Positions 569 to 23,147 of a stretch of DNA of 35,602 nt are shown here, one piece after another; position 1 is the first letter of the stretch; each line of letters starts with the position of its first letter. The notes beneath the pieces were generated by a model. That model was given only the letters and a program-made list of their open reading frames with translations, had not been told where the DNA came from and made no database searches. Source of the stretch: Sandaracinus sp. (GTDB lineage: Bacteria; Myxococcota_A; Polyangia; Polyangiales; Houyiibacteriaceae); contig PABA01000039.1 of assembly GCA_002699025.1 (NCBI GenBank), positions 1 to 35,602 on the forward strand. Direction: 5' to 3'. A program made the position numbers and the translations under genes.

Positions 569-578
569 TCAGTCGTCG
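561..578 (-). terminator. Hairpin at the 3' end of the phosphoesterase gene
   Basis: CGACGAC at 561-567 pairs perfectly with GTCGTCG at 572-578 across a 4-base loop that contains part of the stop codon (569-571). Reading leftward the hairpin is followed by GCCTTTCTC, a weak T-rich run. It could be a factor-independent terminator for the phosphoesterase gene, but the T-tract is poor. Confidence 0.4.
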
Positions 579-3160
579 TCTTCCTCGCCCTCGAGCGTGA
601 CCGGCCAGGGGGGCTCCGTGCCGCGGAGGTGGCGCCAGAGCAGGCGCGAGAGGCCCGGCTGGGCGTCGGGGCGGCTGAAGTCCCAGTCCAGCGACTCCTC
701 CGCCATCGGCGAGTCGTCGTCCGGGTTCGTCGTCTTCGGCCAGCGCCGCTCGATCACCTCGTAGGGCGTGTAGTCCGGCGTGCTGGTGAAGAGGTCGAGC
801 ATGGGCGAGGCGTTCGCCCAGTAGGCGTTCAGCGGCCGCTCGAGCCCGAGGATGAGCTGGATCGTCCGGAAGATGCTCGCCTCGTTGTAGTGCACGCTCG
901 AGACGTAGCCGCGCTTCGCCCAGGGCGAGATCACCTGCAGCGGCGCCCGGTGGTTGTCGACGTGGTCGCCCCCGTTCTGCGGATCGTCCTCGATCACGAA
1001 GATCGCCGTGTGCGGCCAGAAGCGCGAGTGGCTGAGCGCGTCGGCGATGATGCCGACGGCGTAGTCGTTGTCCGCGATCATCGAGCGCGGCGTGGGCGCC
1101 CCGGGCTGGCGACCGGAGGTGTGGTCGTTGGGGATGAGCACGTAGGTGAAGCTCTCGAGCCGGCAGCGCGACTGCCACTGCGTCTCGAGGTAGCGGGCCT
1201 TCACCTCGTCCTCGACGCCGAGGTTGTAGATCAGCCCCGGGTAGCGCCCGTCGGGCGGCGCCGAGCGGCTCGAGACGATCTCGCCGTAGTTCGTCTGCGC
1301 GATCTCGTTCTCCGCCATGTAGTCGAAGACGCTCCCCTCCTCCGGGTAGCCGTAGGGCGCCGAGACGCCCTGCGGCGGGATGCCCCAGTAGCCCCGGCCC
1401 CAGGTCGTCAGCCAGGAGCGCTCCACGAAGTCCGTCGTGCGCCCCATGGTCGTCCAGATGTGCCCCTGCACGGACTGCTCGGCGAGCGAGTAGTAGTTGT
1501 CGCCCATGGCGAACTGGCGGGCGAGCTCGCGCGTGTTCGGGATGATGTCCTCGATCTCGTCGCGCGCGAGGAGCGTCAGCTCCGGGTCGCCGTTGCCGAG
1601 CGGCTCGCCCTCGGCGTCCGTGAGGTCGCCGAAGTAGGCGTCGTAGGTCTTGTTCTCGCGCACGACGAGGACGACGTGGCGGATCTGCTCGGAGGGGCCC
1701 GCGCCCTCGGCGGGGATCGGGAAGTCGTACTCGGCACCGGCCGGGCACTCGACCTCGAGGAAGCGCGTCGCCCGGTCGTTGTTCGCGGCGATCTCCATCT
1801 CCCAGCGGCCGAGGTTCTCGTCGGTGATCTCGGCGGCGGGGACGATGCTCAGGCTGCCCCCGACGAGCTCGACGATGTCGTCCTCCTCCGGGTTCAGGTT
1901 GGCGCCCGTGCCCTCGTGCTTGCCGTTGAGGATCAGCACGCGGCCGTCGTCGAGGGCGCGCACGTCGGTCGGGTACCACATGGTCGGGATGCGACCGACG
2001 CGGTCCCAGCTCTCCGTCTCGAGCACGTCGACGGCGTTGTCGCCGGCGTTCACGACGAGGAAGCGCGCGCCGTCGGGCGAGAAGACGCCGGTCACCGGCG
2101 AGCTCCCGCGCGGGGCCGACTCGCCGACGACGAAGATCTCGTCGACGACGGCGCCCAGGGCGACGTCGAGGATGGAGAGCGAGTCGCTGTCCGAGTTCGC
2201 GACGACGAGCGTGGCGCCGTCCGGGCTGAGGGCCATGCCCTCGGGGTTCTTGCCGACGGGGATGGGCGTGCCGGCCGTGCGCGCCTCCAGGTCGACGGGC
2301 ACGACCACGCCGTCGTCCCAGAGGCTGACGAAGGCCGTGCGATCATCGGCGGCGACCTCGAGGTCGTAGGCGCGGCCGCCCTCGGGGAGCGCGACGCGCG
2401 CGATCTCCGCGTCCTCCTCGACGTCGTAGAGGACGAGCTGGGCGCCGAACATGAGCGTGACGACGAGCGTGCGATCGTCGCCGAGCAGGTGCAGGTCGCT
2501 CACGTAGCCCTCGTCCAGGACCGTCGCGAGGGGCACGTGCGCGCCGTCCGTGAGCTGGCCCGTGGCCGGGTCGAAGCCGTAGCGCCAGACGTAGCCGCTG
2601 CCGCCGCCGCTCACGAAGATCTCCGATCCGTCGCTCTTGGCCGCCACGCCGAGGAAGAGCGCGCTGTCCGGCGCCTCGCGGAAGGGGCGGAGGTCGACCA
2701 CCTCGCCCGTGCCGAGGTCGATCACGCTGAGCTGCTCGTCGTCGACGCCGCCGTCCGAGACGATCGCGTAGTCCGTGCCCGGCACGCGGCGCACCGTGAG
2801 CGGGAAGCCCGGGAGCTCGACCTGCGTGCCGAGGCGGGTCACGCGGCGGGCGCCGGGCACGATGTAGCCGCCCTCGCCATCGTCGCCGACCGGGAGCGTC
2901 GCGCCCTCGTCCGCGATCACGGCGGCGCAGGCGCCGGAGACCGGATCGGGGAAGTCGGTCGTGCGGCACTCGGGCGGCCCCGCGTCCACCGGGCCCGCGT
3001 CCTCCGCGCCGGCGTCCACGGCCGCGTCGGCGCCCGCGTCCGCGCCGCCGCCGTCGCCGCCGCAGCCGCCGACGCCCGCGAGGAGGGCGCAGAGCACCGC
3101 CCCCGAGCAACCGAGCCGTCCGTCCCACGGCTCCCGCCGCCCCGTGATCCCACCGCGCAT
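569..3160 (-). CDS. Secreted lipoprotein: beta-propeller plus phosphoesterase (phospholipase C/acid phosphatase superfamily)
   Basis: The 863-residue product starts at an ATG at 3160; an upstream GTG/ATG extension would move the signal peptide inside. The N-terminus has a hydrophobic signal ending at a lipobox-like VGGC (Cys33), then an Ala/Asp/Gly linker with repeated DAG units typical of myxobacterial lipoproteins. Residues ~80-450 hold YVTN-like beta-propeller blades (for example FSPDGARFLVVNAGDNAVDV). From ~490 comes a phosphoesterase domain of the PF04185 type, with the early RENKTYDAYFGD motif near residue 500 and a late metal-site-like GGDHVDNHR near 733. The family hydrolyses phosphoester bonds outside the cytoplasm; the substrate cannot be told from sequence. 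It stands alone, with a hairpin at its 3' end. The family call is firm and the substrate unknown. Confidence 0.88.
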   Translation of the reverse strand: MRGGITGRREPWDGRLGCSGAVLCALLAGVGGCGGDGGGADAGADAAVDAGAEDAGPVDAGPPECRTTDFPDPVSGACAAVIADEGATLPVGDDGEGGYIVPGARRVTRLGTQVELPGFPLTVRRVPGTDYAIVSDGGVDDEQLSVIDLGTGEVVDLRPFREAPDSALFLGVAAKSDGSEIFVSGGGSGYVWRYGFDPATGQLTDGAHVPLATVLDEGYVSDLHLLGDDRTLVVTLMFGAQLVLYDVEEDAEIARVALPEGGRAYDLEVAADDRTAFVSLWDDGVVVPVDLEARTAGTPIPVGKNPEGMALSPDGATLVVANSDSDSLSILDVALGAVVDEIFVVGESAPRGSSPVTGVFSPDGARFLVVNAGDNAVDVLETESWDRVGRIPTMWYPTDVRALDDGRVLILNGKHEGTGANLNPEEDDIVELVGGSLSIVPAAEITDENLGRWEMEIAANNDRATRFLEVECPAGAEYDFPIPAEGAGPSEQIRHVVLVVRENKTYDAYFGDLTDAEGEPLGNGDPELTLLARDEIEDIIPNTRELARQFAMGDNYYSLAEQSVQGHIWTTMGRTTDFVERSWLTTWGRGYWGIPPQGVSAPYGYPEEGSVFDYMAENEIAQTNYGEIVSSRSAPPDGRYPGLIYNLGVEDEVKARYLETQWQSRCRLESFTYVLIPNDHTSGRQPGAPTPRSMIADNDYAVGIIADALSHSRFWPHTAIFVIEDDPQNGGDHVDNHRAPLQVISPWAKRGYVSSVHYNEASIFRTIQLILGLERPLNAYWANASPMLDLFTSTPDYTPYEVIERRWPKTTNPDDDSPMAEESLDWDFSRPDAQPGLSRLLWRHLRGTEPPWPVTLEGEEDDD

Positions 3161-5377: not shown

Positions 5378-6730
5378 TCAGAACGCGAGGTTGATGTGGC
5401 TGCGGAGGCGCCACTGGTCCCGGTCCGGGCCCGCGTCGCGCAGCCAGCTCACGTCCGTCTGCCACTTCAGGTCGTGGCCGACGAAATAGACGTTCACGCC
5501 GAAGACGGTCTCGTGCTGCGCGCGGATCCGATCGACGCCCGCGTAGCGCCCCTCGAGCTCCGCCTGCCGGTCCGGGTCGCTCGCCGTCGCGATGCGCTCG
5601 TCCGCCGTCGCCCGCGCGTCCCGGCGGAGCGCGTCGCTCCGGATCACGGCCGAGTGCCGGAGCGCCACGCCGATCAGCGGATGCGGCCGCACCTCCGCCT
5701 CGAGCAGGCTGCCGCCGTGCGAGAGCATGAGGTCGCCGTCGAGCTCCTCCGCCGCCGCCAGGAAGGCGCCCGCCCAGGCCGTCAGCGGCCCCACCCGCAG
5801 CCGCCCGTCGAGCGCGAGCCGCAGCGTCTCGTCCACGCCGTGCTCGGGCCGCGTGTCCCAGGCGGCGCTCAGCGAGACGAGCCCATCGACGGCGCCGACG
5901 CTCCCGCGCCGCGTCACCCGCCCCGCGAGCTCCGGGTGCGGCGTCGCCAGCGGCCGGAACTCCTGCAGGTCGAGGTAGTTCACCCGGTCGTCGCCGTAGG
6001 CGGTCACGAAGCGCTGCCCGTTCGCGGGCCGCAGCGTCTGCCCCTGGTACACGCCCACGGCCCAGGTCCAGGGCGCGTCCTTGCGCGGGTCGAAGAGCGT
6101 GAAGCCGACCTGGCGCCCGCCGCCGAACCAGCGCTCGGTGAGCGGCCAGTCGACGACGCTCAAGCGCAGGAAGGACTGCATCCAGTGCTCGGTGAAGGGG
6201 ATCTTCCCGATGCCCGCCCGGAGCGCCACGCGCTCGGTGATGTCGCCCTCCACGTAGAGGTCGATCAGCTCGAAGGCGCGCGGCGCGAAGTCGGTCTGGA
6301 GCTTGAAGCGCACGCGCCCGTCGAGGAAGGACGCGCGCAAGAAGAGGCGCGCCCGGTGGAGCTGGAAGACGCCGTCGCTCTCGCCGTCCTCGAAGGTGGC
6401 CGTGCCGCGGATCTGCGTGCCGAAGCCGACGCCGACGGTGCCGTGCTCGCCGACGGCCTCGACGGGCCCGAGCCGCTGAGGCCACTCCCGCTCGCCGTGC
6501 TCCTCGGTGGCCTCGGGCGCGAGCTCGGCCTCGTGGTCGCCGATGGAGGCCTCGGTGGCGTGCTCCTCCGAGGCGGCGTCGTGCTCGGCGGCCGCGGTGT
6601 CTTCGACCTGCGGCTCCGGGCCGACCGCGGGCTGCTGGGCGCGGGCGCCCCGGGGGAGCACGAGGGGGAGCGCGATGAGGGTCGCGAGCGCGAGGAGCGC
6701 CCGGATCGATGCGTGGGTTCGGATGTTCAT
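5378..6730 (-). CDS. Outer-membrane porin, phosphate-selective OprO/OprP-like
   Basis: The 450-residue product starts at the ATG at 6730, which overlaps the upstream stop as ATGA, so translation is probably coupled. Residues 1-32 form a signal peptide ending GARAQQ. Residues ~38-85 are an unusual Glu/His-rich segment (EHDAASEEHATEAS, DHEAEL, EEHGERE). From ~95 the sequence is a 16-strand-type barrel of the OprO/OprP family: alternating strands such as FKLQTDFAPRAFELIDLYVEG and the typical GKIPFTEHWMQSFLRLSVVD region, ending in a terminal aromatic (INLAF). The porin would let anions or small sulfur compounds across the outer membrane. It is the last gene of the leftward sulfur module. Family is clear; the substrate is unknown. 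Confidence 0.88.
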   Translation of the reverse strand: MNIRTHASIRALLALATLIALPLVLPRGARAQQPAVGPEPQVEDTAAAEHDAASEEHATEASIGDHEAELAPEATEEHGEREWPQRLGPVEAVGEHGTVGVGFGTQIRGTATFEDGESDGVFQLHRARLFLRASFLDGRVRFKLQTDFAPRAFELIDLYVEGDITERVALRAGIGKIPFTEHWMQSFLRLSVVDWPLTERWFGGGRQVGFTLFDPRKDAPWTWAVGVYQGQTLRPANGQRFVTAYGDDRVNYLDLQEFRPLATPHPELAGRVTRRGSVGAVDGLVSLSAAWDTRPEHGVDETLRLALDGRLRVGPLTAWAGAFLAAAEELDGDLMLSHGGSLLEAEVRPHPLIGVALRHSAVIRSDALRRDARATADERIATASDPDRQAELEGRYAGVDRIRAQHETVFGVNVYFVGHDLKWQTDVSWLRDAGPDRDQWRLRSHINLAF

Positions 6731-8235
6731 CGGACCTGCTCCACGTCCACGCGCCCGTCGACGAAGCGCACGTCGAAGACCGGGAGCTCGGCGGCGAGGT
6801 GGCGCACCGTCGCCCCGAGCTGCCGCGCCGCCCGCGCGTTCAGCTCCGCCTCGAAGCGCTCCGGCGTCAGCCCTTCGGCGAGCTCCGGCGCCTCCTGCAG
6901 CAGGAAGCGCGCGTGCTGCCCGCGCAGGAAGGCCGCGACCTCCGGGTGGTTCACGAAGACCGAGTGGTGCCCGATGCGCGGCGGCACGGCGGGCACGTTC
7001 GAGAAGGCGTGCACCTCGCGCGGGAAGTGCACGTTGATGACCGCCTCCTCCTCGTGCTCGCCGTGGAGCACGACGAAGTCGAGCATCTCCGGGTGCGCCC
7101 AGAGCATGCGGTAGACGACCCGCAGAAAGCCCTGCGTCAGCCCCTCCCTCACCGCGTACTCGTCCGGGTGCGAGGCGACGAGCTTCAGGTGCCCGCAGCC
7201 GATGTTCGCCGGCGTCAGCAGATGCCCCAGGAGCGCCTCGCGCACGTCCGTGGGCGGGCGCCGGATGAGCCGCTCGACGGCCTCGAGCTTCGCCTCCGGG
7301 CCCTCCGCCCCCGCGAGGAGCTCGCGGAAGATCGGGTCGGCCTCGAGGCTCTCGAGGAGGTGCTCGAGGGCGTGGTCGTCCGTGTGCACGTAGAAGCGGC
7401 CGAAGCCCTCCACGTAGGCGTCGAAGAGGCCCATGATGTCGTCCTCGGCCAGCTCGCGGCCGGTCATGGCCTCGATGGTCGAGAGCGCCAGGAGGAGCTC
7501 CCCCGCGTCGCCGCCCGGCGTGCCGAGCACCGCGTGCTCCTCGCGCCCGTCCACGCAGGCCTCCGTGCCCTGGAGCAGGAGCGCCGCCACGCGCACGTTC
7601 TGGATGGGCGCCGCCTCGAGGTAGCGCTTCAGGGACTCGCTCGTCGGCGGCCCCTCGTAGTCGGCCGCGCTCGCCGGCGCGGCCCCGACCTCGCGGCCGT
7701 GGAGCTCGGCGTCGTGGCCAACCGGGTAGCGCGAGAGACCCCAGGCGAGCATGCCGCCGGTCATCGACGCGGCCCGGTCGAAGCCCATCGCCTCGACCGT
7801 GTGGACCGCGCGCGCCGAGCGCCGCCCGGAGCGGCAGACGAAGACCACCGGGTCGCGCGGGTTCCAGCTCATGGCGACCTCGGGGAGGCGGCCCAGGGGG
7901 ACGTGCTCGGCGCCGGGCACGTGGCCCGCCTCTTCGAGCTCGTCGGGCTCGCGGACGTCGACGAGGTGCACGTGGCAGCCGTGCTCGGCGACCCAGCGCG
8001 TCGAGACCTCGGGGACGCCGCCGGGAGAGGGATGGAAACGCATGGCGTCGGCCTCCGGGGCTTCGTCGGGGTGGCAGTGAGGGAGCGTGGGGTGCGTCGC
8101 GGTCGCGACGCGCTCGGTCGGCCCGGCCGGCATCGGCGGGAGCGAGGAGGTGTCGCGAGAGGGCGCCCCCGAGCAGGCCGCCGCGAGCGCGGAGGCCGCG
8201 GCGACGAGTCGTAGAGAGGGGGCGAAGCGGTTCAT
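6727..8235 (-). CDS. Lipoprotein with rhodanese domain and zeta-class (cadmium-type) carbonic anhydrase-like domain
   Basis: This 502-residue protein begins with a signal peptide and lipobox (LAAAC, Cys21), so it should sit in the envelope. A short His/Cys-rich stretch follows (HPTLPHCHPDE, ~48-57). Residues ~74-172 are a rhodanese domain with active-site loop CRSGRR (Cys134). Residues ~205-430 contain, in order, ACVDGRE (Cys227, Asp229, Arg231), TPGGDAG (~239), VHTDDH (His284), IGCGHLKL (Cys347) and LHGEHEEEAVINVHF (~390). This order matches the metal-site signature of diatom cadmium carbonic anhydrase (CVDGR, PGG, HGDH, LGCG, HHGSH), with a Cys-His-Cys metal site and an Asp-Arg pair. The His-to-second-Cys spacing is much longer here. 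Known carbonic anhydrases of this class hydrate CO2. The ATGA overlap with the porin gene and nearby sulP fit a role in anion handling. Enzyme activity is inference. Confidence 0.72.
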   Translation of the reverse strand: MNRFAPSLRLVAAASALAAACSGAPSRDTSSLPPMPAGPTERVATATHPTLPHCHPDEAPEADAMRFHPSPGGVPEVSTRWVAEHGCHVHLVDVREPDELEEAGHVPGAEHVPLGRLPEVAMSWNPRDPVVFVCRSGRRSARAVHTVEAMGFDRAASMTGGMLAWGLSRYPVGHDAELHGREVGAAPASAADYEGPPTSESLKRYLEAAPIQNVRVAALLLQGTEACVDGREEHAVLGTPGGDAGELLLALSTIEAMTGRELAEDDIMGLFDAYVEGFGRFYVHTDDHALEHLLESLEADPIFRELLAGAEGPEAKLEAVERLIRRPPTDVREALLGHLLTPANIGCGHLKLVASHPDEYAVREGLTQGFLRVVYRMLWAHPEMLDFVVLHGEHEEEAVINVHFPREVHAFSNVPAVPPRIGHHSVFVNHPEVAAFLRGQHARFLLQEAPELAEGLTPERFEAELNARAARQLGATVRHLAAELPVFDVRFVDGRVDVEQVR

Positions 8236-8591: not shown

Positions 8592-10441
8592 TCAGGTGGC
8601 GAGCGCGGGCCGCGGCGAGGTCCGCGTCCGCTTCGTCTCCTGGTCGCTGCGCTCGCGCCGGGCCGGCTCGCTCGGGGGCGCCTCGTCGACGTCCTCGGCG
8701 AGCCCGTCGGCGACCGACTCCATGGCGTCGTGGACGCGCAGCGCGCGCCCCTCCTCGCCGAGCCGCTCCCAGAGCCCGCTCCGCTTCAGGACGTCGCGGA
8801 CCGGCCCCTTGATGCCCGCGAGGACCATGCGGATGCCCCGCTCCTCGTAGGCCTCGTGGAGCTCCTCGAGGGCCGCCTCGGCCGACGAGTCGAGCTGGTT
8901 CATGCCGCTCGCGTCGAGCACGACGGCCCGGAGCGGCGCGTCCATGGCGAGCTCCTCGCTCTTGAGCATGTCCTTCAGGAACGTGACGTTGCCGAAGTAG
9001 AACTGGGCGTCCACGCGCACGGCCAGCACGCCCGGCGTCGTCTCCGCTTCCGGGAAGCGCTCGACGTTCCGGTACTCCTCCGTGCCAGGCAGGCGCCCGA
9101 GCACGGCCACGTGCGGCCGCGTCGTCCGGACCACGAAGGTCACGAGCGAGGCGCCGACGCCGACGAGGATGCCCTCCTCGATGCCGAGGCCGAGCGTGGC
9201 CACGAAGGTGAGCACGAGCAGCGCGAGGTCGCTCTTCTTCACCTTCCAGAGGTGCTTCATCTCGGCGATGTCCACGAGGCCGAAGACGGCCGTCATGATG
9301 ATCGCGGCGAGCACCGCCTTCGGGAGGAAGTAGAAGAGCGGCGTGAGGAAGAGGAGCGTCAGGCCGATGACCGCCGCCGTGATGAGCCCGGCGAGGCCCG
9401 ACTTGGCGCCCGCCTGCGCGTTGACCGCCGTGCGGGAGAAGCCGCCCGTGACCGGGTAGGCGCCGAAGAGGGTGCCGCCGAGGTTGGCGGCGCCGAGGGC
9501 CACGAGCTCCTGGCTCGGGTCGACGTCGTAGCGGTTCTTCCGGGCGAAGGCCTTGGCCACGCTGATCGACTCCATGAAGGAGACGAGCGAGATGGTGACG
9601 GCGATGGGCAGGAGGGACTGGATGGCCTCGAGGTCCATCGTCGGCAGCGAGGGCGAGGGGAGCCCGGCCGGCACGTCCCGGACGATCCTCACGCCGGCCT
9701 CCTCGAGGCCGAGGGCGAAGACGGCGAGCGAGCCGAGCACGACCACCGCGAGGGCGCGGGGGAAGACGGGCTTCCACTTCTTGAGCCCCATGAGCAGCGC
9801 GATGGAGGCGACGGCGATGACGATCGTCGCCACGTGCCACTCGCTCATGGCGCCCACGGCGTTCTGCAGGATGACGAAGATGTTCTTGCTGCGCTCGAGA
9901 TCGATGCCCAGCAGGTGCTTGAGCTGGCTGAAGCCGATGATGAGCGCGGCGGCGCTGGTGAAGCCGCTGATGACCGGGTGGCTCAGGAAGTTCACCAGGA
10001 AGCCCAGGCGGAAGACGCCCATGAGCAGCTGCATCAGGCCGACCATGCCCGCGAGGAGCACGGCGTACATGACGAAGGCCTCCGTGCCGGTCTCGGCGAG
10101 GGGCGCGACGCCCTGGGCGACCAGGAGCGAGACCATGGCCACCGGGCCGACGGCGAGCTCGCGGGAGGTGCCGAGGAGCGAGTAGATCGCGAGCGGCACG
10201 AGCGAGGCGTAGAGGCCGACGATGGGCGGCAGGCCGGCGAGCATCGCGTAGGCCATGGCCTGCGGGATGAGCATGACGGCCGTCGTGAGGCCCGCCGAGA
10301 CGTCCCCGCCGAGGTTCTTCCGATCGTAGTTCGGGATCCACTCGAGGAAGGGGAGGTAGCGGCGGATGCCCGTGGCGGGGGGCTTGGGCCGGCCGGCGTC
10401 CGTGGGGAGCGCGGCGGCGGCCTGGTCGTTCGAGCGGGCCA

Positions 10442-10442
<1 letters not shown>
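8592..10442 (-). CDS. SulP-family anion permease with C-terminal STAS domain
   Basis: The start is taken as the ATG at 10442, which overlaps the preceding stop as TGATG; a GTG one codon upstream is also possible. The 616-residue product has about a dozen hydrophobic segments over residues ~45-440. The SulP signature is PQAMAYAMLAGLPPIVGLYA at ~60-79, with the conserved GGTLFGAYPVTGGFSRTAVN at ~332-351. A STAS domain follows (~480-590, with RAVVLDASGMNQLDSSA). SulP proteins move sulfate, bicarbonate or other anions across the inner membrane. Being translationally coupled to the YeeE/YedE pair and next to a carbonic anhydrase-like gene, it could carry sulfate/sulfite out, or bicarbonate. Sequence alone cannot separate these. 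The last ~30 residues are charged and variable. Confidence 0.93.
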
Positions 10443-10947
<505 letters not shown>

Positions 10948-10951
<4 letters not shown>

Positions 10952-11379
10952 AGCGTACCTCCGAAGAAGTGGGAGACGGCGGCGACGGTCGCGGCGGCCG
11001 TCGCCATGAAGGTGAGCACGGCGACCAGGGACCGCGGCGAGAAGCGGCTCAAGCCGCAGATGCCGTGGCCGCTCGTGCAGCCGTTGCCCATCTGGGTGCC
11101 GATGCCGACGAGGACACCGGCGGCGAGGAGCGCGCCCGTCGAGCGGTCGATCTCGATCGCGAACGCGTCGGGCGCGAAGGCGTGGTAGGCGAAGCCTCCG
11201 ACGAGCAGACCGGCGACGAAGAGGGCGCGCCAGACGGTCTCGCCGCTCTGGAGCTTGAGGACGCCGCCGGTGATGCCGCTGATGCCCGCGATGCGGCCGT
11301 TCAGCACGAGCATCATCGCGGATGCGACGCCGATGAGGAGGCCGCCGAGGGCGGATGCGAGGGGCGTGAAGTTCTCCAT
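10948..11379 (-). CDS. YeeE/YedE-family transporter half
   Basis: The 143-residue product is read from the ATG at 11379 ([17 protein letters not shown]), the usual start for this family; a GTG-led extension to 11445 is possible but would place the start inside the putative regulatory region. It has four hydrophobic segments and the key motif [16 protein letters not shown] at ~103-118 with two cysteines that in relatives take part in sulfur-compound passage. With the next gene it would make a complete two-piece channel. It is the first gene of the leftward sulfur operon, and its start lies 378 bp from the divergent dioxygenase start. Confidence 0.88.
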
Positions 11380-11757: not shown

Positions 11758-12666
11758 ATGCAGATCAAGGCGTTCTACGACGAGCCCACGTACACGGTCA
11801 CCTACGTCGTCTGGGACGAGGCGACGAAGGACGCGGTCGTCATCGACCCGGTCCTCGACTACGACCCCCTCGCCTCTCAGACCTCGGTCGGCTCGCTGCA
11901 GGAGCTCGACGCCTTCCTCGAGGAGAAGGGGCTGAAGCTCCTCTACGTCCTCGAGACGCACGCGCACGCCGACCACCTCAGCGGCTCGCAGTACCTGAAG
12001 CGCAAGTACGGCGCCGGCGTCGTCATCGGCGAGAAGATCACGGTCGTCCAGGAGACCTTCAAGGGCATCTTCGACCTGGCCGACGACTTCGCGGTCGACG
12101 GCAGCCAGTTCGACGCGCTCGTGAAGGACGGCGAGACCTTCGAGGCCGGCTCGCTGAAGATCGACGTCATCGCCACGCCCGGCCACACGCCGGCCTGCGT
12201 CACCTACAAGATCGACGACGCCATCTTCACCGGCGACGCGCTCTTCATGGACGACTACGGCACCGGTCGCTGCGACTTCCCGCGCGGCAGCGCCGAGGAC
12301 CTCTACGCCTCGCTCCGGAAGCTCTACGACCTCCCGGACGACACGCGCGTCTTCGTCGGCCACGACTACCAGCCGGGCGGCCGCGAGGTGATGTGGGAGA
12401 CCACGATCGGCAAGTCCAAGGCGAACAACCCGCAGATGCGCGGGGACACGCCGAAGGAGGAGTTCGTGAAGTTCCGCCAGGAGCGGGACGCCCAGCTCCG
12501 CCCGCCGCGCCTCATCTTCCAGAGCGTGCAGGTGAACGTGGACGCGGGCCGCATCCCCGCGCCGCACGAGAACGGCATCCGCTACCTCAAGATGCCCCTC
12601 AACCTCTTCGGGCCGACCGACGAGGTCGGCCAGAAGAAGGACGAGAAGGCCGAAGCCGCCGAGTGA
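11758..12666 (+). CDS. Persulfide dioxygenase-type metallo-beta-lactamase-fold protein (Blh subfamily)
   Basis: The ATG at 11758 has a good ribosome site (AGGAGA) seven bases upstream; an in-frame ATG at 11731 lacks one. The 302-residue cytosolic protein carries THAHADH (67-73), [10 protein letters not shown] (His143), [20 protein letters not shown] (Asp160) and GHDY (His202). His68, His143 and Asp160 correspond to the two-His-one-carboxylate iron site of ETHE1-type enzymes. The [10 protein letters not shown] variant is typical of the Blh branch found in sulfide-responsive operons. The reaction would be glutathione (or similar thiol) persulfide plus O2 giving sulfite. It is the first gene of the rightward operon, behind the sigma-54 promoter. 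Confidence 0.9.
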
Positions 12667-12865: not shown

Positions 12866-13963
12866 GTGATCTTCCGTCAGCTCTTCGACCCCGAGTCCTC
12901 CACCTACACCTACCTCCTCGCCGACGAGGGCACGCGCCAGGCCGTCCTCATCGACCCGGTCCGCGACCAGGTCGAGCGCGACGAGCAGCTCCTCCGCGAG
13001 CTCGACCTGAAGCTCGCCTACACGCTCGAGACGCACGTCCACGCGGACCACATCGCGGGCAGCGGCGTGCTTCGCCAGCGCCTCGGCTCCACCTCCGTCA
13101 TGAGCGCGCGCGCCGGCGCGAGCTGCGCCGACCGGCTCGTCGAGACCGGCGACCTCATCGAGGTCGGTGACCTCGTCATCGAGGCGCGCCTCACGCCCGG
13201 CCACACGAGCGGCTGCGTGAGCTACGTCGTCCCCCAGGCGAAGCGCGTCTTCACCGGCGACACGCTGCTCATCCGCGGCTGCGGCCGGACCGACTTCCAG
13301 CAGGGCAGCGCCGAGACGCTCTACGACTCGGTGCATCAGCAGCTCTTCACGCTCCCGGACGACTTCGCCGTCTACCCGGGCCACGACTACAAGGGCCGCA
13401 CCTCGAGCACCATCGGCGAGGAGAAGAAGCACAACCCGCGGCTCGGCGGCGGCAAGAGCAAGGAGGAGTTCGCCCGGATCATGGCGAACCTGAAGCTCGC
13501 CCATCCGAAGAAGATCGATGTCGCCGTGCCGGCGAACCTCGAGTGCGGGCTGAAGATCCCGAACGTCGCCGGCGAAGCGGTGGAGAAGGCCTGGGCGCCG
13601 ATCGAGCGCACGGGCGGCGGCGTGCCCGAGGTGACGGCGGGCTGGGTGAAGGCGCACCTCGGCGAGTTCCGCGTCCTCGACGTGCGCGAAGAGGACGAAT
13701 ACAACGGGCCCCTCTCGCACCTCCCCGGATCGGAGCTCGTGCCCCTCGGCACGGTGGAGCACGGCGTGAAGGACTGGGACCGGAAGGCGCCGGTCGTCAC
13801 CGTCTGCCGCTCGGGCGGGCGGAGCGGGCGCGCGGCGCTGGCCCTCGAGAAGATGGGCTTCGAGCGCGTCGCCTCGCTGCGCGGCGGCATGCTGGTCTAC
13901 CGTGAGGTCGAGAAGAGCGGCGGCGCGGCGGAGGCCGAGGCCGAGCCCGTGGTCTGCGGCTGA
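12866..13963 (+). CDS. Persulfide dioxygenase-rhodanese fusion (ETHE1-like)
   Basis: The start is GTG at 12866, with AAAGGA about six bases before it. The 365-residue protein has an ETHE1-type metallo-beta-lactamase domain (1-~235): THVHADH (56-62), PGHTSGCVSY (His113), TGDTLLIRGCGRTDFQQG (Asp132) and PGHDYKG (His173). His57, His113 and Asp132 are the expected iron ligands. A rhodanese domain follows (~251-350) with active-site loop CRSGGRS (Cys314). Natural dioxygenase-rhodanese fusions of this order are known in proteobacteria; they couple persulfide oxidation to sulfur transfer between thiosulfate/sulfite and thiols. No signal peptide is present, so it is cytosolic. It extends the operon started by the Blh-type gene and is followed 32 bp later by a small rhodanese. 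Confidence 0.93.
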   Translation: MIFRQLFDPESSTYTYLLADEGTRQAVLIDPVRDQVERDEQLLRELDLKLAYTLETHVHADHIAGSGVLRQRLGSTSVMSARAGASCADRLVETGDLIEVGDLVIEARLTPGHTSGCVSYVVPQAKRVFTGDTLLIRGCGRTDFQQGSAETLYDSVHQQLFTLPDDFAVYPGHDYKGRTSSTIGEEKKHNPRLGGGKSKEEFARIMANLKLAHPKKIDVAVPANLECGLKIPNVAGEAVEKAWAPIERTGGGVPEVTAGWVKAHLGEFRVLDVREEDEYNGPLSHLPGSELVPLGTVEHGVKDWDRKAPVVTVCRSGGRSGRAALALEKMGFERVASLRGGMLVYREVEKSGGAAEAEAEPVVCG

Positions 13964-13995
13964 GCCCGCGCGCGAAGGGCGAGCGAAGGGAAAGG

Positions 13996-14355
13996 ATGGA
14001 GATGGCAAAGAAGGGAATCTTCGCGGCGTTCGCGGCGCTCCTCGGCCTCGGCTGCGGGGCGGACGCGGAGACGGTCTCGCGGGCCGAGGCGATGGTGCAG
14101 GAGGGGGCGATCCTCCTCGACGTGCGCACGCCCGGCGAGTTCCAGGGCGGGCACATCGAGGGCGCGCGGAACATCCCGGTGCAGGAGCTCTCGGCGCGCC
14201 TCGGGGAGCTCGAGGAGGGCGCCGACGTGGTGGTCTACTGCCGGAGCGGCGCGAGGAGCGCGCGGGCGGCGGGGATGCTGCGCGAGCGCGGCCACGAGGT
14301 GCTCGACCTCGGCGCCATGAGCAGCTGGCCGAACGCGGACGAGATCGTCCGGTAG
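13996..14355 (+). CDS. Small exported rhodanese-like protein
   Basis: The product is 119 residues from the ATG at 13996, or 117 from the ATG at 14002, which has the better-spaced AGGA. A hydrophobic signal ends at LLGLGCGADAE; Cys20 might be lipidated, but the residues before it are not an ideal lipobox. The rest is one rhodanese domain with DVRTPGEFQGGHIEGARNIP and active-site loop CRSGARS (~83-89). It would transfer sulfane sulfur in the periplasm. It lies 32 bp after the dioxygenase-rhodanese fusion and is probably the last gene of the operon. Confidence 0.88.
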   Translation: MEMAKKGIFAAFAALLGLGCGADAETVSRAEAMVQEGAILLDVRTPGEFQGGHIEGARNIPVQELSARLGELEEGADVVVYCRSGARSARAAGMLRERGHEVLDLGAMSSWPNADEIVR

Positions 14356-21015: not shown

Positions 21016-22395
21016 ATGGCACGCGCCAGAAAGCTCGTCGTGGTCTCCAACCGGGGGCCCTACCGTCGCGAGGGGGGCCGCTGGATCCGCTCCGCCGGCG
21101 GCCTCGTCGCCGCGCTCCACCCGATGCTCGTCGGCCGCGGGGGCGTCTGGGTCAGCGCCAAGCAGGCCAAGGACTTCGACACGGTCCAGGGCGGGCCGGA
21201 GGTCGAGTACGAGCTCGCCTCCGTGCGCATCTCGCCGAAGCTCCAGCGCGCCTTCTACCTCGACATCTCGAACGCCATCATCTGGCCGCTCCTGCACAGC
21301 TTCCCGACGACCATGGCCGTCGCGGACGCGCCCTGGGATCGCTACGTGAAGGCGAACGAGCTCTTCGCGGACGTGACCTTCGAGGCGAGCAAGCCGCGCG
21401 ACCTCGTGTGGATCCACGACTACCACCTGATGCTCGTGCCCGGGATGCTCCGCGAGCGCCGCAAGCGCGCGCGCATCGGCTGGTTCTGCCACGTGCCCTG
21501 GCCGCCCGCGCAGCTCTTCGGGATCCTCCCCTGGCGCGCAGACGTGCTCGAGGGGCTCCTCGGCGCGGACGTGCTCGGCTTCCACACGCAGCAGTACGTC
21601 GACCACTTCCTCGACTGCGTGGACCAGTACACGGACCACCACGTCGACCGCTCGCGCGGCACGGTGAAGCTCGGCCGCCGCATCGTGCGCTGCCTCGCCG
21701 CGCCCATCGGCATCCCCGTGCAGCAGCTCCAGGAGCTCGCCGCGCACGAGGACGTCGTCGCCGAGCTCGCGCGCATCCGCAAGAAGGTCGACGGGCGCCG
21801 CGTCATCCTCGGCGTCGACCGGCTCGACTACACGAAGGGCATCCCGGAGCGGATGCGCGCCTTCGACCGCTTCCTCTCGAAGAACGCGGACGCGCGGGAG
21901 GAGGTGGTGATGGTGCAGATCATGGTGCCGAGCCGCACCGACGTGCAGGCCTACAAGGACCTGAAAGACGAGATCGACCGGCTCGTCGGCGACATCAACG
22001 GGCGCCACGCGAGCACCGGGCGCATCCCGCTCCAGTACTTCTTCCGCGGCTTCGATCAGAAGGCGCTCTTCGCGCACTACCGGGCGGCGGACGTGGCGCT
22101 CGTCACGCCGCTCCGCGACGGCATGAACCTCGTGGCGCACGAGTACGTGGCCTCGCGCATCGACCTCGACGGCGTGCTCGTGCTGAGCGAGTTCGCGGGC
22201 GCGGCCGGCTTCATGCACGAGGCCGTGCAGGTGAACCCCTACGACGTCGACGCGATCGCGAGCGCCATCGGCGAGGCCCTCTCGATGCCGAAGGCCGAGC
22301 AGAAGAAGCGCATGAAGGCGCTCCGCTCGGAGGTGCTCGAGCTCGACGTGCATCGCTGGGCCGACGACTTCCTCTCGGCGCTCGAGCACGGGTGA
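21016..22395 (+). CDS. otsA: Trehalose-6-phosphate synthase
   Basis: The 459-residue product is of normal length for OtsA (GT20 family). It makes trehalose 6-phosphate from UDP-glucose and glucose 6-phosphate in the cytosol. Signature regions are present in order: [16 protein letters not shown] at the start, [16 protein letters not shown] (~132-147), [15 protein letters not shown] (~191), [18 protein letters not shown] (~271-288), and [18 protein letters not shown] (~369), which form the donor and acceptor sites. The stop overlaps the next start as GTGA, so otsA and otsB are translationally coupled. Trehalose commonly protects against osmotic stress and drying. Confidence 0.96.
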
Positions 22396-23147
22396 GCGGC
22401 GTGGCGAAGCACGACGCGCTGAAGGAGCGGCTCCGGCGCCTGCCCCGGCCGCTGCTGGTCGGGCTGGACGTGGACGGGACGCTGGCGCCGATCGTGGCGG
22501 ACCCGGCGGCGGCGCGGATCCCGGAGGCGACGCAGCAGCTCCTGCGGAAGCTGGCGAAGCGCGAAGGGCTGATCGTGGCGCTCCTGACGGGGCGGGACCT
22601 GCCGGCGCTCCGGCGCATGGGGAGCGTGGCGGGGGCGTGGCGCGCGGTGGAGCACGGCGGGCGGATCGTGGCGCCCGGCGAGCGGCCGAAGGCGCGGCGG
22701 CTGGCGCCGGAGGACACCGCGAAGCTCGAGGCCTTCGCCGAGTGGGTGGCGGGGACGCCGGGGCAGCTCGAGCGGAAAGACGGCTCGGTGGCGATCCACA
22801 CGCGGAAGCTCGGCGAGGCCGGCGAGGCCTGGCTGGGGAAGGCCGTGAAGGAGGCGCAGCGGCTCGGGCTCCACGCGCGGGAGGGGCGCGCGGTGGTCGA
22901 GGCGGAGCTGGCGCCGGGGGACAAGGGGGAGGCGCTGGCGGAGGTGCACGGGCGGACCGGGGCGAAGAGCGTGTTCTTCGCCGGGGACGACCTCACGGAC
23001 CTGCCGGCGATCCGCTACGCGGCGCGGCGCGGGATGGGGATCTTCGTGAAGAGCGCGGAGCGGCCGCGGAAGCCGAAGGGAGCGACGGCGGCGGTGAAGG
23101 GGCCGGAGGAGCTGCGGGCGCTGCTCGAGGGCCTGCTCGACGGCTGA
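22392..23147 (+). CDS. otsB: Trehalose-6-phosphate phosphatase
   Basis: The start is GTG 22392, overlapping the otsA stop; a GTG at 22401 is an alternative. The 251-residue HAD-superfamily protein has motif I LVGLDVDGTLAPI (~22-34, nucleophile Asp), motif II VALLTGRDLPALRR, and motif IV FFAGDDLTDLPAIR (~197). A small cap domain lies between (AVEHGGRIV, then the Trp/Glu-rich segment). It removes phosphate from trehalose 6-phosphate to release trehalose and completes the pathway started by the coupled otsA gene. Confidence 0.94.
   Translation: MSGVAKHDALKERLRRLPRPLLVGLDVDGTLAPIVADPAAARIPEATQQLLRKLAKREGLIVALLTGRDLPALRRMGSVAGAWRAVEHGGRIVAPGERPKARRLAPEDTAKLEAFAEWVAGTPGQLERKDGSVAIHTRKLGEAGEAWLGKAVKEAQRLGLHAREGRAVVEAELAPGDKGEALAEVHGRTGAKSVFFAGDDLTDLPAIRYAARRGMGIFVKSAERPRKPKGATAAVKGPEELRALLEGLLDG

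Follow-up and report, generated by a model that had tools for sequence, protein, structure and literature searches.

The question raised by this locus is what a bacterial protein that joins a rhodanese to a carbonic anhydrase (CA)-like domain might do among genes for sulfide oxidation. Zeta-class CAs are generally presented as enzymes of diatoms, and a survey of microbial CAs from 2026 regards them as largely confined to diatoms and protozoa (PMC13098186). The gene lies in a window of 35,602 nucleotides (the whole stretch of DNA analyzed here, contig PABA01000039.1 from Sandaracinus sp.), in a genome (G000) of 9.24 Mb that is 96% complete and whose relatives are Myxococcota.

Architecture of the Focal Protein

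The initial annotation had placed in positions 6727–8235 a lipoprotein combining a rhodanese with a zeta-class CA-like domain. This ORF is real and runs along the minus strand (8235..6727; ATG at 8235, stop at 6727–6729), encoding 502 amino acids, as supported by the translation and by relatives, while a plus-strand reading of the interval is not the encoded protein. The residues on which that annotation was built (C21, C134, C227, D229, R231, H284, C347, H391, and H394) are all found at the positions it gave, and its architecture and fold can be judged right.

At the N-terminus, a signal peptide with a lipobox (8173..8235, minus strand) appears as a hydrophobic stretch, residues 8–21 LRLVAAASALAAAC, ending in Cys21 (8173–8175); the lipobox is recognized by pattern only, and its Cys recurs in relatives. 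The rhodanese domain follows at residues ~60–175 (7711..8058, minus strand) and is detected by Pfam PF00581 on residues 87–165 (E 9.3e-16, 58.6 bits against a cut-off of 22.2), apart from which Pfam gives nothing of weight on the focal protein. Its active-site loop CRSGRRS is intact and contains Cys134 (7834–7836), as the annotation had proposed. In the full-length model, the best structural match of this part is the rhodanese of BpPRF, a persulfide dioxygenase-rhodanese fusion (5ve3, Z 17.5, 35% identity). A disordered linker (residues 179–190, pLDDT < 50 in the full-length model; 7666..7701, minus strand) leads to the C-terminal domain, which comprises the 309 residues 194–502 (6730..7656, minus strand). 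No account of a rhodanese fused to a zeta-CA turned up in the literature searched, most subscription papers lying outside that search.

Predicted Fold of the C-Terminal Domain

The assignment of the C-terminal domain to a zeta-class CA-like fold is supported by structure prediction. The AlphaFold2 model, for which a 64-row alignment of relatives served as input, has a mean pLDDT of 93 and a pTM of 0.90. When it was compared with the PDB using Foldseek, the first four ranks were taken by chains of CDCA1, the zeta-class cadmium carbonic anhydrase of Thalassiosira weissflogii (PDB 3boh, 3bob, 3uk8, 7bez; PF18484), with probabilities of 0.97–1.00 and E values of 0.005–0.02, and everything below them was noise; these chains are thus the sole above-noise PDB matches, and no unrelated fold emerged. 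VIA alignment to CDCA1 gave Z 10.9–11.7 over 177–180 residues at 3.2–3.5 Å and ~20% identity, the next matches being the beta-CAs 1ddz (Z 3.4) and 2fgy (Z 3.0). CDCA1 was matched again, at Z 11.8, by the full-length model (pTM 0.73), and nothing matched in a viral structure library.

Homology to CDCA from sequence alone was rejected as a basis for the assignment, since Pfam, phmmer/hmmsearch and hhalign were weak or silent. Searching Pfam and PDB sequences with phmmer/hmmsearch returned no match of weight for the C-terminal domain, the focal protein has no match to Pro_CA (PF00484), none of 15 family members matched the Pfam CDCA model PF18484 at E up to 10, and the hhalign probability to CDCA is ~5–10%. 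The CDCA claim is therefore carried by the structure match, and the absence of PF18484 matches indicates a separate sequence family having the same fold. Based on these models, the family is a bacterial one with a predicted zeta-CA fold that lies outside Pfam CDCA.

Putative Metal Site

The motifs of diatom cadmium carbonic anhydrase had been noted to occur in the same order in the focal protein, and this is borne out by their invariance and by a collinear alignment with CDCA1. Across 64 relatives, C227, D229, G230, R231, G241, G242, H284, D286, G346-C347-G348-H349, H394, and E396 are invariant, and G392 is conserved in at least 90% of the 64 sequences. Profile alignment was performed against three diatom repeats, taken from the actual PDB chain sequences, and five bacterial CDCA proteins. 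In local mode it brings CVDGR, PGG (PGG/LGG in the comparison with CDCA1), H-x-D, GCG, and G-x-H-x-E into register with CDCA, at a score of 28.3 compared with 15.0 ± 3.0 in 150 column shuffles, only 1/150 of which reaches it; the global mode of hhalign produced no sensible alignment. A chance match of the motifs was rejected on the combined grounds that the residues are invariant, that CDCA1 leads the structural ranking and that the shuffles rarely reach the score, although the sequence evidence taken by itself is modest.

The proposed ligands are Cys227 in CVDGR (7543..7557, minus strand), which aligns to Cys41 of CDCA1 (3bob chain) and is accompanied by the Asp229-Arg231 pair; His284 (7384..7386, minus strand) in VHTD, which corresponds to VHGD in CDCA1; and Cys347 in GCGH (7189..7200, minus strand). 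A set of two Cys and one His plus an Asp-Arg pair therefore occupies positions corresponding to those of CDCA1, as judged by residue identity. From the sequence, Cys227, His284, and Cys347 are predicted to share one metal, and we infer that Zn or Cd would be bound through them beside the Asp229-Arg231 pair. Beta-CAs follow a similar Cys-Asp-Arg/His/Cys logic. The G-x-H-x-E motif, residues 392–396 (7048..7062, minus strand), is likewise common to the bacterial CDCA proteins.

However, the domain also has features of its own. A four-helix insert (residues ~287–339; 7219..7377, minus strand), helical in the model and seen in the profile alignment as ~53 unaligned residues between His284 and Cys347, is absent from CDCA1, and His349 is family-specific, CDCA having Phe or Tyr at that position (GCGF in CDCA1). 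The chemistry of the family could therefore differ from that of CDCA. Further, CDCA1 consists of three repeats, whereas the focal protein has a single domain that is fused to a rhodanese and predicted to be lipid-anchored.

True single-repeat CDCA proteins occur in bacteria as well (L097–L101, also L132 and L133; PF18484 E 4e-53 to 4e-59), and were found in 5/189 Myxococcota genomes, one of which (G008) also has the rhodanese-fused protein. L097–L101 share all the motifs, including G-x-H-x-E, but, unlike the focal protein, they are recognized by PF18484 and have neither the insert nor a rhodanese. As for other CA classes, the focal genome has no match to alpha-CA (PF00194), beta-CA (PF00484) or Pfam CDCA (PF18484), the classes searched. 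A general replacement of beta-CA by the new domain was considered and rejected, because beta-CA is already present in 17/19 sampled family-positive genomes.

Distribution of the Family and Its Rhodanese

Using the C-terminal part as the query, we found the protein conserved in 15/58 related genomes, and among 84,980 species genomes we found 72 loci. Most of these are in Myxococcota, with others in Gemmatimonadota, Rhodothermota, Pseudomonadota-labeled bins, Binatota, and one Falkowbacteria genome. In a maximum-likelihood tree of 68 domains, 19 including the window protein form clade I and 49 form clade II, the deep branch between the two being moderately supported (87/95). The focal genome itself has a full-length paralogue in clade II (G000:C145), 40% identical to the window protein. 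The Candidatus Falkowbacteria member (L085, 4574–5494) is a standalone CA-like domain on a long branch.

The lipobox is present in most clade-I Myxococcota proteins, its Cys being found in nine clade-I orthologues (L025, L026, L028, L031, L033, L035, L044, L057, and L063), and none was found in clade II or in Gemmatimonadota members. Judging from these signals, the cellular location probably differs within the family.

The rhodanese is fused in 53/53 full-length members scanned, and in Gemmatimonadota it is attached at the other, C-terminal end (L090) or encoded by the next gene (L092 and L095). That the rhodanese and the CA-like domain recur together in more than one arrangement hints strongly at a functional link in clade I, where most Myxococcota proteins retain the catalytic Cys. 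Their association could also be taken to favor the idea, put forward in the initial annotation as protection, loading or sensing of the Cys-ligated metal site, that the rhodanese delivers sulfur to this site or repairs or guards it. However, Ser replaces the catalytic Cys in 36/57 scorable members overall and in most of clade II, and a rhodanese domain is missing from the standalone members L085, L086, L088, and L126, so the CA-like domain evidently does not require a rhodanese, and we regard such a protective or loading role as very unlikely. A role as a sulfane-sulfur carrier or sensor would rank above metal protection or loading.

Sulfur Context of Clade I

In the window, a SulP-family anion transporter with a STAS domain (8592..10442, minus strand; PF00916, E 6e-116) is encoded 356 bp upstream of the focal gene, followed by a DUF6691 and YeeE-type sulfur-transport pair (10442..11379, minus strand; PF20398, PF04143). 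On the plus strand are a Blh-like persulfide dioxygenase of metallo-beta-lactamase fold (11758..12666), which matches NF040641 at E 6e-103 but under the cut-off, the match being confined to the dioxygenase half, and then a persulfide dioxygenase-rhodanese fusion and a single-domain rhodanese (12866..14355; PF00753 + PF00581, and PF00581). The same gene set has been described as the yeeE-yedE-pdo2 sulfide-detoxification operon (PMC7315123); no CA-like protein is mentioned in the passages of that description consulted here. The SulP neighbor scores above the cut-off of the general SulP model TIGR00815 but fails the BicA equivalog NF050096 (135 bits compared with a cut-off of 880), and it could equally transport sulfate or sulfite.

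Downstream, a protein that is porin-like in the appearance of its sequence (5378..6730, minus strand) is encoded by a reading frame whose first 4 bp (ATGA) also form the end of the focal gene. It has no Pfam match, and proteins of its type adjoin the family gene in L025, L026, L028, L035, L070, and L074. Elsewhere in the window, one gene (569–3097, minus strand) encodes a large protein that combines a beta-propeller-like part with a phosphoesterase part (PF04185), and at 21016–23147 (plus strand) a gene for a glycosyltransferase of family 20 precedes a phosphatase-like gene, the two being probably the trehalose pair OtsA/OtsB.

The sulfur context is not a property of the whole family, a possibility that we rejected, since each of the 12 loci whose neighbors include YeeE, DUF6691, a persulfide dioxygenase or SulP belongs to clade I. 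SulP is near 10/19 clade-I loci and 3 further standalone loci (L126, L129, and L130), where the SulP gene is adjacent and divergent; of these, L126 has the complete sulfur set, including a separate rhodanese. In L090, L092, and L095, the genes for YeeE, a DUF6691-like protein, the dioxygenase, SulP, and the CA-like protein follow one another in this order on one strand. Sulfur neighbors are found with 0 of 36 Ser members (Fisher p 0.005 for Cys against Ser, with relatedness ignored).

Such a setting would suit a hydrolase of COS or CS2 which yields CO2 and H2S, the latter being oxidized by the adjacent rhodanese and persulfide dioxygenases, and this is the main rival to a carbonic anhydrase. 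It is consistent with the location of clade I, with its intact rhodanese Cys, in sulfide-oxidation clusters; with the CS2 hydrolysis reported for zeta-CAs (Alterio et al., 2021, as indicated by the title in the references of PMC9570166); and with the fact that known COS hydrolases are relatives of beta-CAs (PMC8209446, PMC5745022). SulP itself, however, indicates bicarbonate. Its pairing or fusion with a beta-CA has been described as a bicarbonate system (PMC6458275). The SulP-can2 pairs and fusions resemble the window in that SulP adjoins a CA, although beta-CAs are a different family, with VIA Z of 3.4 or less to the focal domain.

Bestrophin Partners in Clade II

Clade II has a different transport partner. 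A bestrophin gene (PF25539, E down to 3e-87) is found beside 13 clade-II loci, counting L089, which is absent from the tree, and in 12/13 of them the gap is −8 to 98 bp, with the bestrophin either upstream or downstream and in several lineages. For example, it immediately adjoins the gene for the CA-like domain and pseudo-rhodanese in L050, L062, and L076, with a 4-bp overlap in L062 and L076. The window genome has only one bestrophin gene and four SulP genes, and therefore neither partnership is expected by chance. Bestrophins of Chlamydomonas have been proposed to feed bicarbonate to a CA (PMC6708349). Downstream of the focal genome's own clade-II paralogue (G000:C145) is a CitMHS-family gene (L123, 8858–10621), which adds one more type of anion transporter, after SulP and bestrophin, to those near the family.

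These partners bear on the COS/CS2 hydrolase, since bestrophin, like SulP, indicates bicarbonate, and clade II keeps the active-site residues without sulfur genes nearby; we therefore consider that hydrolase unlikely. They also raise the possibility that the CA-like domain is a non-enzymatic sensor of CO2/bicarbonate or sulfide regulating the neighboring SulP or bestrophin. The tight adjacency of the gene to the channel, and the retention in clade II of a rhodanese fold that mostly lacks its Cys, would fit a regulatory or binding use, whereas the ligand residues, the Asp-Arg pair and H-x-D are fully conserved in different phyla, which resembles catalysis and makes a purely sensory role quite unlikely.

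Proposed Function and Implications

Taken together, the occurrence of the domain in two clades, each with an anion-transport partner unrelated to the other's, and its single conserved set of active-site residues fit a membrane-sited carbonic anhydrase. We hypothesize, and consider it reasonably probable, that the C-terminal domain works as a carbonic anhydrase on behalf of an anion transporter and that, in the focal protein, this activity is linked to the oxidation of sulfide. A catalytic function is likely, and the domain would interconvert CO2 and bicarbonate plus protons beside SulP in clade I or the bestrophin channel in clade II. The focal protein would act in the envelope as a lipoprotein, its domain supplying or removing bicarbonate and buffering protons for the SulP transporter. 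Since the oxidation of sulfide yields acid anions, local exchange of bicarbonate and protons is plausible: the neighboring persulfide dioxygenases would oxidize sulfide to acidic sulfite or sulfate, which SulP may swap for bicarbonate. The active rhodanese, accessory to the anhydrase domain, would act as a sulfur carrier or sensor that connects the protein with this same pool of sulfane sulfur.

A broader proposal, which we put forward as tentative and rather doubtful, is that this widespread zeta-CA-fold family, with its recurrent rhodanese, links the chemistry of inorganic carbon, or of COS/CS2, with the oxidation of sulfide, either through a SulP that swaps sulfur oxyanions for locally produced bicarbonate, or through H2S derived from COS/CS2 that enters the persulfide pathway.

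The family was previously unnamed, and its genes adjoin bicarbonate-type transporters and, in the focal branch, sulfide-oxidation genes. A bacterial zeta-fold family that is missed by sequence libraries would alter the counts of genomes thought to have no CA, and would set the diatom enzyme in a bacterial context. Through the fused or neighboring rhodanese and SulP, carbonic anhydrase chemistry would be tied to sulfide oxidation.
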